A stretch of 36,272 nucleotides of DNA from Phascolarctobacterium sp. (GTDB lineage: Bacteria > Bacillota > Negativicutes > Acidaminococcales > Acidaminococcaceae), in the NCBI GenBank assembly GCA_021201965.1, contig JAJQDY010000034.1, forward strand, positions 1-36,272, written 5' to 3'. This document shows, one piece after another, positions 1 through 36,272 of the stretch. The notes under the pieces are model-generated. The model was not told the DNA's origin. It saw nothing but the letters and a program-made list of their open reading frames with translations, and made no database searches. The position numbers and the translations under genes are program-made. How positions within the stretch are numbered: position 1 is the stretch's first letter; each line of letters begins with the position of its first letter.

Positions 1-150
1 GCACCGAAAGGTCAATCAATGGATAACTTATCCGATGAGGACGTGGAATACGCTGCTGACTTGATCTGTGGACTGCCGCGTAAGGAACTGGGCTACCGTA
101 CACCGGAAGAACTCTTTGACGCTTGCCTGGATGAAATCTACACTGCGTGA
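1..150 (+). CDS. IS30-family transposase, C-terminal fragment (5' part outside window)
   Basis: The open frame enters from the window edge and ends at TGA 148-150, giving 49 residues. It starts with the PKG turn that follows the last catalytic glutamate region of IS30 transposases and contains LPRKELGYRTPEELF, the family's characteristic C-terminal NxRPRKxLGYxTPxE-like motif. The DDE catalytic residues themselves lie upstream, outside the window, so activity cannot be judged. It is the only clear + strand gene in the window. Assignment to IS30 rests on this motif and on the position close to the element's end; the exact ISfinder group is unknown. Confidence 0.8.
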   Translation, partial: APKGQSMDNLSDEDVEYAADLICGLPRKELGYRTPEELFDACLDEIYTA

Positions 151-152
151 GT

Positions 153-187
153 AGCAGAGCCATTTGGCAGGGTCAAGTGGCTCTGCT
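153..187 (+). repeat. Subterminal stem-loop of the IS element
   Basis: AGCAGAGCCA (153-162) and TGGCTCTGCT (178-187) form a perfect 10-bp inverted repeat with a 15-nt loop, starting 2 bp after the transposase stop. There is no T-run behind it, so it is a weak candidate for an intrinsic terminator; it may end transposase transcription or protect the mRNA 3' end. A second, small palindrome, CCAGCT-A-AGCTGG, lies a little further on within the terminal repeat. Confidence 0.6.
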
Positions 188-256
188 GTTGGGTAATCAA
201 GCCCAGCTAAGCTGGACTCTATTAAACTTTTACACGGATGTGTTCAACTTGCACTT
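186..256 (+). repeat. IS terminal segment, copy A (inverted partner at 36202-36272)
   Basis: These 71 bases are the reverse complement of the last 71 bases of the window with one mismatch. They include the IS terminus, which read inwards from the tip is AAGTGCAAGTTGAAC. The two copies are oriented with their ends facing each other across the 36 kb between them. Just outside each terminus, after two unlike bases, the flanks share AATTTTCG. Confidence 0.9.
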
Positions 257-2237: not shown

Positions 2238-3162
2238 CTATATTTTTTCATATGCTTTTTCGCCAAACAGACCTGCTGGACGAAATACAAGACAAATAAT
2301 TACAATAATGAAGCTGATCATATCCTGATAGCTTGATCCGTCTGTAATGAAGCTTACAGTGAATATCTCCATGAAGCCTAGTAGCAAACCTCCGATTATG
2401 GCACCGTAAATATTGCCCAGCCCGTCTACTACTGCCGCTGCAAATCCCTTAATACTTGCCGCAAATCCCATATTGAATTTGACGATGTTATATGTCATGC
2501 CGTTCGTGAGTCCTGTAACAGATCCCAGTATGGATCCAATAATTAACGTAAAAATAAATATTTTCTTTACGTCAATACCCATCATCATGGCTATCCCTCT
2601 ATCCTTAGCCGTAGCACGGATATAACGGCAATATGTAGTATTTTAGATAAAACGATGCATTGCTGCAATCATAATAGTCGACAGCATAATACAAAGCAGG
2701 GTCTCTGGTTTTACCAGAGCCCAGCCAATGTGAATAGTATCCATTTCCACCAAAACCGGAAATGTCTGAGGATTCCTTCCGTCAGGAACAAAAAGCATGC
2801 CAGCTTCCCTAACTACGATTGATGCACCGAGAGTAATCAGAAGAGTCATAATATCAGAAGCATCACGCATAGGGCTAACTATATATTTTTCCAATACTGC
2901 CCCGAATAATGCGCAAATTATAATGACCACTGCCAAAATCAACAAGATAAACAGCAAAGATCCTTGAGTAAGACCGCAAGAAACTAAAACGCCGCTTGCG
3001 ATCATAGCTGCAAATGCTCCAAGCATGAACACTTCACCATAGGCAAAATTAACTACCTCAATTACACCAAAAAAACAGTGTGAATCCTACAGCAATCAGA
3101 GCATACATAACGCCAAGGCTCAAGGCATTGAGAAATTGCTGCGTAAGTACCGCACCTGTCAT
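2238..3162 (-). pseudogene. livH: livH pseudogene, amino-acid ABC transporter permease
   Basis: The ATG at 3160-3162 has a good AGGAG site upstream and gives the LivH start (LNALSLGVMYALIAVGFTLFF). A T7 run at about 3069-3075 then shifts the frame; with six T residues the reading continues as GVIEVVNFAYGEVFMLGAF, which is the conserved LivH motif. A TAA at 2643-2645 interrupts the loop that should read like TxxGRxxRATAxD and here reads NTTYCRYIRATAKD. The rest, including MGIDVKK and the C-terminal helices, is continuous to TAG 2238-2240. At least two lesions therefore separate it from a working permease. It lies between livK and livM as in standard liv operons. Confidence 0.88.
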
Positions 3163-3204: not shown

Positions 3205-4378
3205 CTATTTTTTTACTATTTTCTTATCCACTATCTGCAGATCTGCCTTCTCATAAGAGAGCCATTTACCATCTTCCGAAATAAAGGCGGTAATAAGCTT
3301 GTTCTGAGTCTGTCCTTTTTCATCAAAAGTCGTTTCGCCAATAACTCCATGATATCCCTTAGTAGCCCTCAAAACATCAATAACCTTGGCACGGTCAGTG
3401 GATTTTGCTCTATTTACGTCATCCATTATAACGCCTACTGCGTCATAGCCGAAATGACCATAATTTTCATAAGGCGCCGCAAATTTAGCCTTTGTGTAAT
3501 CTTCCATAAATTTTTTGCCTCCAGGCAGTTCTGCCAAAGGTTTCTCAATGTTGAAGGCTATAATACCATCAGCTGCAGGAGCAGCAATTTTGTTGAAGGT
3601 ATCTGAAATAATACCAGAATCGAAAAACATCAGGCAGTCCATCGGTAAATCCTTCATCTGACGGCGGATTAAAGCCGCTTCAGTTACCACACCACCAAAA
3701 TAGATTGCGTCATGGTTTTTGGCTTTGATATTAGTAAGAACAGCCGAGAAATTCTGCTACCCTACTGCGATACCGTCCTCAAATAAAACAGTGGCCACAT
3801 TTTTAACAGCAGCCCATGCAAATTGCTCTGCATTCGTTTTGCCATAGTCAGTACGGTCATTTATAAGGCAAAGGGTCTTAACTCCCCACTCCTTAGCAGC
3901 GCGTTCGCCTGCATACTCATTCTGAACATTTAAATGAGTCATGACGCGGGTTATTTCCTTATATCCTTTTTCCGTAATATCAGGATGAATAGCAGAAGCT
4001 ACTACTAAAGCACAGCCGTTTTTATGGAATACCGGAGCGGTAGCCAAAGCACAGCCGCTGTTAAAATGACCTGCCACAGCAACAATACTTTTATCCGCAA
4101 TAAGTTTATTAGCTGCCGCTACTGCGGCTGACGGGTCGCCTCCGTCATCTGCAGCAACCAGTTCGAATTTGTATGGATATTTCCCAGAAGCATTAGCCGT
4201 ATCAACAGCCAGCTGCGCAGAATTTTTAAGACCGATACCAAGTGCGGCATTCCCGCCTGTTAAAGGAGCAAGAAAGCCTATTTTTACAACTTCCTGCTTC
4301 TTCTCTCCGCTGCAGCCTGCAAACAGTGACATTGCTAAACCTGCAGCCACGAGGGAGCATAATATTTTTTAATTTCAT
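3205..4378 (-). pseudogene. livK: livK pseudogene, periplasmic amino-acid-binding lipoprotein
   Basis: From ATG 4376-4378 the first codons are followed by a frameshift in an A6 run (about 4365-4370). The downstream frame shows a lipoprotein signal peptide with lipobox LFAGC and then a type 1 periplasmic-binding fold (VVKIGFLAPLTGG, AVAGHFNSGCALATAPVF). An in-frame TAG at 3757-3759 splits the protein in the hinge region (DGIAVG-stop-QNFSAVLTNIKAK). The second lobe is then continuous to TAG 3205-3207. Family members bind leucine, isoleucine, valine or other neutral amino acids; the glycine riboswitch upstream suggests glycine relevance. The two lesions should abolish export and folding. Confidence 0.88.
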
Positions 4379-4410: not shown

Positions 4411-4444
4411 ATAAAAAACACCAGAAGCTGCTTTAATTCTGGTG
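4411..4444 (-). terminator. Intrinsic terminator of the glycine-riboswitch leader
   Basis: On the minus strand CACCAGAA and TTCTGGTG (4437-4444 and 4419-4426) form an 8-bp stem with a 10-nt loop, followed directly by TTTTTTATT. It lies 45 nt after the second glycine aptamer and about 33 nt before the livK start, the usual place for a transcription-attenuating expression platform. An antiterminator pairing was not obvious by eye, so the sign of the response (on or off with glycine) is not assigned. Confidence 0.8.
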
Positions 4445-4488
4445 ATTAACATATATTAAACAAAATGTGATTATCCTTGTGTAATAAT

Positions 4489-4648
4489 ACTCTGTCCACG
4501 GGCCTGAGAGATTAGAGCAAAATGCCCCTTACACCTTCGGCGCCAATTTAAGGAACTCTTCAGAGTTGTGTCCATATACAGTACCCGTTTTTTAACAAAA
4601 CACCTAAGAGTGTTACTCCTTCGGTAGGTCAGACCTTCTCCCGTATAT
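4489..4648 (-). ncRNA. Tandem glycine riboswitch upstream of livK
   Basis: Two aptamers are visible on the minus strand. Aptamer 1 (about 4574-4648) is closed by ATATAC/GTATAT, has GGGAGA at its 5' side, the core CCGAAGGAGTAA, and GGAC after its closing strand. Aptamer 2 (4489-4566) is closed by ACTCTG/CAGAGT, has the core GCCGAAGGTGTAA, and ends CTCTCAGG...GGACAGAG, the hallmark 3' motif of glycine aptamers. The two are separated by a few nucleotides, as in cooperative tandem glycine riboswitches. The leader promoter lies upstream and a terminator downstream. Such switches normally control gcv genes or glycine/alanine carriers, so a Liv-type ABC operon is an unusual client. Confidence 0.88.
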
Positions 4649-4677
4649 TTCATTCACTTTTATTTACTTATGGAAAA

Positions 4678-4705
4678 ATTATAACACTATTTTATCCAAA
4701 TGCAA
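4678..4705 (-). promoter_or_regulatory. Promoter of the riboswitch-liv operon
   Basis: The minus strand shows TTGCAT (4700-4705), a 16-bp spacer and TATAAT (4678-4683) preceded by TG one base upstream, an extended -10. Transcription would start about 25 nt before the first aptamer. Confidence 0.7.
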
Positions 4706-36202: not shown

Positions 36203-36272
36203 AGTGCAAGTTGAACGCATCCGTGTAAAAGTTTAATAGAGTCCAGCTTAGCTGGGCTTGATTACCCAACAG
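36202..36272 (-). mobile_element. Inverted copy of the IS30-type end, cut by the window edge
   Basis: These bases repeat 186-256 in inverted orientation with one mismatch (36217 reads C in the complementary sense where the left copy has T). Since the same transposase-proximal end is seen on both sides, the transposase of this second copy would be encoded on the minus strand outside the window. The stretch ends at the window edge, so a complete element is inferred, not seen. Confidence 0.8.

Follow-up and report, generated by a model that had tools for sequence, protein, structure and literature searches.

A tandem glycine riboswitch before a decaying liv operon in Phascolarctobacterium, and a probable glycine-OFF switch on LivK-type binding proteins across the Negativicutes

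Why would a glycine riboswitch stand in front of an operon for a branched-chain-type amino acid importer, and what is left for it to control once that operon is broken? We analyzed a stretch of 36,272 nucleotides from Phascolarctobacterium sp. (contig JAJQDY010000034.1), referred to here as the window; its genome is G000 in our set. A sequence-only reading of the window had placed a tandem glycine riboswitch directly upstream of livKHMGF. We consider it probable that this switch is a glycine-OFF attenuator that was recruited within the genus and is now an orphan, and that an OFF switch acts class-wide on stand-alone LivK-type binding proteins.

The tandem riboswitch and its placement

We searched for the switch with the RF00504 covariance model, which has a curated (gathering) cutoff of 32 bits. 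Aptamer 2, on the minus strand at 4573-4482, scored 48.0 bits (E value of 5e-7 over the window). Aptamer 1 lies directly 5' of it (minus strand, 4653-4569). The genome search gave this aptamer 31.1 bits and cmscan gave it 21.0 bits, below the cutoff when it is taken alone. The counterpart of aptamer 1 in a second Phascolarctobacterium genome, G001, scored 33.3 bits, above the cutoff. We also searched 61 related genomes with RF00504 and found that the spacing between the two aptamers is the tandem spacing of dozens of these relatives. The aptamer cores and the 3' hallmark quoted in the sequence-only reading were all located: the core CCGAAGGAGTAA is in aptamer 1, and the core GCCGAAGGTGTAA and the hallmark CTCTCAGG...GGACAGAG are in aptamer 2. 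With one aptamer well over the threshold and an adjoining one just under it, the stretch at 4411-4705 is a genuine tandem glycine riboswitch, as had been claimed, of an already known aptamer family.

The promoter and the terminator proposed with it were found as well. On the minus strand, TATAAT (4683-4678) is followed by aptamer 1, aptamer 2, the terminator (4444-4411), and livK. Reading the sequence, we paired TATAAT with TTGCAT at 4705-4700, 16 nt away, as a probable promoter (4678-4705) that is kept in G001 and has a weak -35 element. The intrinsic terminator, CACCAGAATTAAAGCAGCTTCTGGTG-TTTTTT, came from a folding search and has an aligned counterpart in G001. It consists of an 8-bp stem (CACCAGAA/TTCTGGTG), a 10-nt loop, and a T tract at 4418-4411. 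A consensus promoter and terminator scan listed neither element, because the loop is longer than the limit of 8 nt and the -35 element is weak.

An intact livK operon does stand behind the same switch in a related Negativicutes genome. G001 is a MAG of the same genus, and on contig JAJQAO010000009.1 it carries the switch before an intact livKHMGF set and an M20 deacylase gene. We found that the two leaders are 93% identical over the aptamers and that the switch, the terminator, the ribosome-binding region, and the livK start are colinear in G000 and G001. The intact LivK orthologue matches PF13458 (Peripla_BP_6) with 197 bits, and the deacylase passes TIGR01910, of the ArgE/DapE family.

LivK orthologues that are 60 to 80% identical occur in G037, G040, G014, G021, and G047. 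All of them lie in the same six-gene operon, and the M20 deacylase is the sixth gene of each orthologous operon examined. We found no glycine switch before the liv operons of G037, G014, G021, and G047, the four with readable leaders; the G040 contig ends inside livK. The sequence-only reading had named, as evidence against itself, a switch that serves another adjacent gene in related genomes while the liv operon has a promoter of its own, and these four leaders from other genera go part of the way there. Upstream of livK at three loci without a glycine switch (L133 1500-1900, L134, and L135), the leader has a hairpin with a T tract after it. This suggests that the switch-less liv-M20 operons may carry another kind of attenuator. 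As far as sampled, the link between switch and liv operon is confined to the genus of the window, where it was found in 2 of 2 genomes, one of them 73% complete; recruitment of the switch within the genus rests on these two.

Glycine switches and their expression platforms across the Negativicutes

We surveyed 74 glycine-switch sites in 50 Negativicutes genomes. The first gene after the switch was an AGCS symporter gene at 29 sites, gcvT at 20, a LivK-type binding protein gene at 19, an APC-type amino acid permease gene at 3, and another gene at 3. The 19 binding-protein sites are spread over 15 of the 24 families sampled, and 17 of them represent one clade that is about 32% identical to the LivK of the window. 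The G004 member of this clade is a contig-end fragment. Downstream of the other 16, we read up to 7 kb and found no liv permease gene. A tree of 71 LivK-type proteins groups all complete stand-alone switch-linked members in one supported clade, with a few unlinked proteins among them, and places the LivK of the window's genus outside it.

Some sites have unusual layouts. In two genomes (loci L071 and L149), a second, diverged LivK-type gene follows the first behind one glycine switch. At L095 (G055:C1 302359-302878), a short, repetitive frame of 113 aa, instead of a gene for metabolism or transport, lies behind two sites that have ON-type terminators, and at L086 (G052:C23:154-510), three consecutive glycine aptamer matches lie upstream of gcvT.

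We found a binding-protein switch and a symporter switch together in only 1 of 19 genomes (Fisher P = 8e-7, with close relatives among the sampled genomes as non-independent data points). Split by family, the exclusion gave P values of 0.002 inside the window's family and 0.014 outside it. This near-exclusion suggests that the two kinds of switch mark alternative regulated glycine importers.

We then compared the expression platforms. In the gcv leaders, the 5' arm of the terminator is the P1 3' strand itself (ACAGAGACAAAG and near variants), in 20 of 20 leaders by inspection and in 14 of 14 that were scored; glycine binding should thus block termination (ON). The binding-protein and symporter leaders have a terminator further downstream, with a 5' arm (CCAGAGT, TCCGGAG, TCAGAGTC, and others) that complements the P1 5' strand (ACTCTGGA). 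Where the arm can pair with that strand, glycine should close P1, free the arm, and halt transcription (OFF). A match of at least 7 bp between the terminator arm and the P1 5' strand was present in 15 of 19 binding-protein leaders and in 14 of the 21 symporter leaders scored, compared with none of the 14 gcv leaders that were scored. For the binding-protein and symporter groups, the median shuffle frequency of the match was 0.01 to 0.02. Four binding-protein leaders fell below 7 bp. That of G000 is among these, as are G050 and G057, and in G050, and probably in G057, the automatic terminator choice had passed over a closer candidate.

Both architectures were computed from the leaders, and from them we infer a glycine-OFF design for the binding-protein leaders and an ON design for the gcv leaders. 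OFF behavior has been measured for symporter-linked glycine switches of Streptococcus pyogenes and Vibrio cholerae (PMC5829553, PMC11477304). Such OFF logic would fit uptake and not the disposal of excess glycine; the handling of excess glycine, which had been offered as an alternative role for the transporter, thus finds no echo in the binding-protein leaders, whose architecture fits import.

Applied to the liv-linked leader, the proposed mechanism involves both strands of the aptamer 2 P1 helix. The 5' strand, ACTCTGA (minus strand, 4560-4566), is the strand with which, by the complementarity test, the terminator 5' arm is proposed to pair when glycine is absent, and the 3' strand (GGACAGAG; minus strand, 4490-4497) was placed by the leader folding search. 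Without glycine, the 5' strand would pair with the terminator arm and RNA polymerase would read through. With glycine, the two strands of P1 would pair with each other, so that the terminator would form and the operon would be off. A separate terminator with a mutually exclusive antiterminator, the mark of an attenuator, is present in G001 and damaged in the window.

Cargo of the LivK proteins and decay of the window operon

The closest solved structure to the window-type LivK by sequence is Atu2422 (3ip5 and others; E value of 1e-45). Atu2422 is a small-amino-acid/GABA binder with GABA, proline, alanine, and valine as ligands (PMC5924552), and it has been engineered into a glycine sensor with reduced serine and GABA binding (PMC7411573). 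At Atu2422 position 77, we found Phe in both switch-linked clades and mostly N, A, T, V, I, or Y in unlinked paralogues. The link between riboswitch and F77 comes down to 3 independent pairs in the tree and has no significance, so we regard F77 as a feature of the clades and not as proof. The PDB chain of 3ipc, which we take to be a leucine-accepting mutant, differs from Atu2422 at this position (Ala).

In canonical members of the LivJ/LivK family, S79, T102, Y150, and D/E226 contact the alpha-amino acid. The stand-alone switch-linked clade has all of these intact (S79, T102, Y150, and D226) plus F77, which makes glycine a plausible cargo of these proteins. The window-type LivK keeps S79 and Y150 but has I102 and S226 in 6 of 6 orthologues, so that the T102 and D/E226 contacts are lost. 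An AlphaFold model of this protein had a mean pLDDT of 57, too low for a fold search. Glycine import by the window-type liv operon appears doubtful because two contacts are lost and the orthologous operons are without the switch; the deacylase neighbor suggests that the substrate may be modified or peptidic. The sequence-only reading had argued from the switch that this HAAT-type system imports glycine. That inference was half right: it was right in spirit class-wide, where 17 further sites and their OFF design lend it support, and weakest for its own operon.

We favor the following explanation. In the window's genus, the switch would have been recruited once before a livKHMGF-M20 deacylase operon that is switch-less elsewhere. 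In other Negativicutes, the same OFF switch would act on stand-alone LivK-type binding proteins of a separate clade. We infer that these most likely hand glycine, and perhaps further small amino acids, to a Liv permease that they share and that is encoded at another locus. We are evenly divided on a more specific proposal: that a single ancient clade (F77, G100, and the canonical contacts) is a glycine-uptake module under an OFF switch that uses Liv permeases encoded elsewhere and replaces AGCS as the regulated importer, and that in the window's genus, as a second and independent case, the switch was attached to a whole liv operon and later abandoned.

It seems rather unlikely that the liv-M20 operon of the genus truly served to import glycine or some compound that releases it (such as an N-acyl derivative or a peptidic form that the ArgE/DapE-type deacylase would cleave), with the switch providing feedback. 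Retention of the switch in both genomes of the genus, intact in G001, would agree with this, as would F77, the kinship to the small-amino-acid/GABA binder Atu2422 and its glycine-sensing derivative (PMC5924552, PMC7411573), and a deacylase that is sixth in all orthologous operons examined and passes TIGR01910 in G001. The replacement of T102 by Ile and of D/E226 by Ser in every orthologue argues against it, as do the orthologous operons of other genera, which have no glycine switch.

We also think it unlikely that the switch, having once served a symporter or a stand-alone binding protein since lost, came to lie beside liv through a rearrangement accident that has no functional meaning. The nearest rows to the liv-linked switch in an aptamer tree are symporter-linked switches of the same family, without support; the sole AGCS match of G000 is a pseudogene; and orthologous liv operons go without the switch. 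An accident of this kind is hard to square with the colinearity from switch to livK start in both genomes and with the 8-bp antiterminator match and intact operon of G001.

Recruitment followed by abandonment, which we prefer, is read from the state of the window's operon. Compared with G001, livK (minus strand, 3205-4378), encoding the HAAT-type substrate-binding protein (Peripla_BP_6 in the intact orthologue), is a pseudogene with one in-frame stop and two frameshift-type gaps. On the same strand, livH (2238-3162) and livG (293-1077) each have one stop and one such gap, livM (1076-2226) has three stops and one gap, and livF (262-332) is a stub of the first codons only, about 9% of the gene. 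There are thus six in-frame stops in livK, livH, livM, and livG and about seven frameshift-type gaps with the livF stub included, and the translations downstream of the switch come out in pieces. The complete K-H-M-G-F set is absent in the window and present in G001. The placement directly upstream of livKHMGF therefore stands for livK, livH, livM, and livG, all on the same strand and all broken, and fails for livF, which is no longer a gene.

The 20 genes across the switch from liv have no stops and no frameshifts and are colinear with G001 over 25 kb. Between the window and G001, dN/dS was 0.12 to 0.22 for livK, livH, livM, and livG, near the 0.03 to 0.21 of intact neighbors, which suggests that the operon died recently. 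Although G000 is a 92-contig draft assembly, it is very improbable that the lesions are sequencing or assembly errors in a functional operon, given that six stops of three types and about seven gaps fall in liv and none in 20 neighbors on the same contig, and that livF was lost next to a repeated IS-like element. Sequencing error as the origin of the stops was rejected because the lesions are confined to the liv genes, and recoded stops were rejected because all three stop types occur in liv and the neighbors are intact.

Beside the livF stub, at 1-240 on the plus strand, lies the end of the multicopy IS-like element, with a C-terminal transposase-like frame. This sequence has about 50 matches in the window genome, many at contig ends, and none in G001. 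The frame at 1-150 had no match in Pfam or NCBIfam; we presume that the element resembles IS30. Both ends of the window (1-240 and 36218-36272) are fragments of it. Its expansion seems to be recent and seems to break the assembly as well. The only AGCS symporter match in the window genome (G000:C78:15702-16900, L169) is a pseudogene, its frames split and interrupted by several stops. We found no glycine switch beside it, on a contig that ends about 240 nt upstream, and gcvT had no match in G000 or in G001 (73% complete). We read the window genome as being in active decay.

The switch of the window is decaying along with the operon. Its leader differs from that of G001 at 12 positions, two of which are invariant across all 34 other tandem switches of the OFF type: the C at 4606 in aptamer 1 has become T, and the G at 4560 in aptamer 2 has become A. 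The conserved aptamer core is otherwise mostly retained. In the complementarity test, the antiterminator match fell from 8 bp in G001 to 4 bp in the window because of the change at 4560 and one change in the terminator arm. Constrained folding put the antiterminator state above the P1-plus-terminator state by 3.3 kcal/mol in G001 and by 5.0 kcal/mol in G000, and the unconstrained folding minimum was without the native P1; thermodynamics alone is thus no proof of switching. The remnant switch should, if anything, favor permanent termination. It had been suggested that the switch remains legible before a dead transporter. The transporter is dead, and the switch is legible only with the qualification that 4606 and 4560 are altered and that 4 bp of the antiterminator are left. 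We propose that the operon died amid the expansion of the IS-like element and that the orphan switch, its antiterminator weakened, may be following it.

Known systems

In a literature search that covered neither subscription papers nor supplementary files, we found no glycine riboswitch tied to livK or to a HAAT importer. The transporter targets described for this riboswitch class in the literature searched are symporters and permeases, and a HAAT binding protein or importer as a target appears to be undescribed there. The class-wide link gives a testable substrate for many proteins annotated merely as branched-chain amino acid binding, and it predicts that the orphan binding proteins share permeases. 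With gcv ON and importer OFF designs side by side, the same genomes suit the study of one aptamer wired both ways, and the window offers a riboswitch and its operon at an early stage of joint decay.

The arrangement resembles the OFF-type RF00504 tandems before AGCS (sodium:alanine/glycine symporter) genes in that glycine aptamers precede a transporter gene. It differs in its target, which is a HAAT-type ABC importer operon in the window's genus and a stand-alone HAAT binding protein in the rest of the class. The ON-type switch before gcvT-H-PA-PB, with 20 sites in the same genome set, belongs to the same aptamer family, but there the P1 3' strand serves as the terminator 5' arm. Among HAAT-family proteins, Atu2422 of Agrobacterium shares F77, S79, and Y150 with the window-type LivK, which has I102 and S226 in place of T102 and D226 and adjoins a deacylase gene. 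An RF00504 search of control genomes gave matches in two only, neither of them E. coli. The LivJ/LivK branched-chain system of E. coli has the same protein families and gene set as the operon described here, but its leucine-binding protein has L77 where the window-type LivK has F77.
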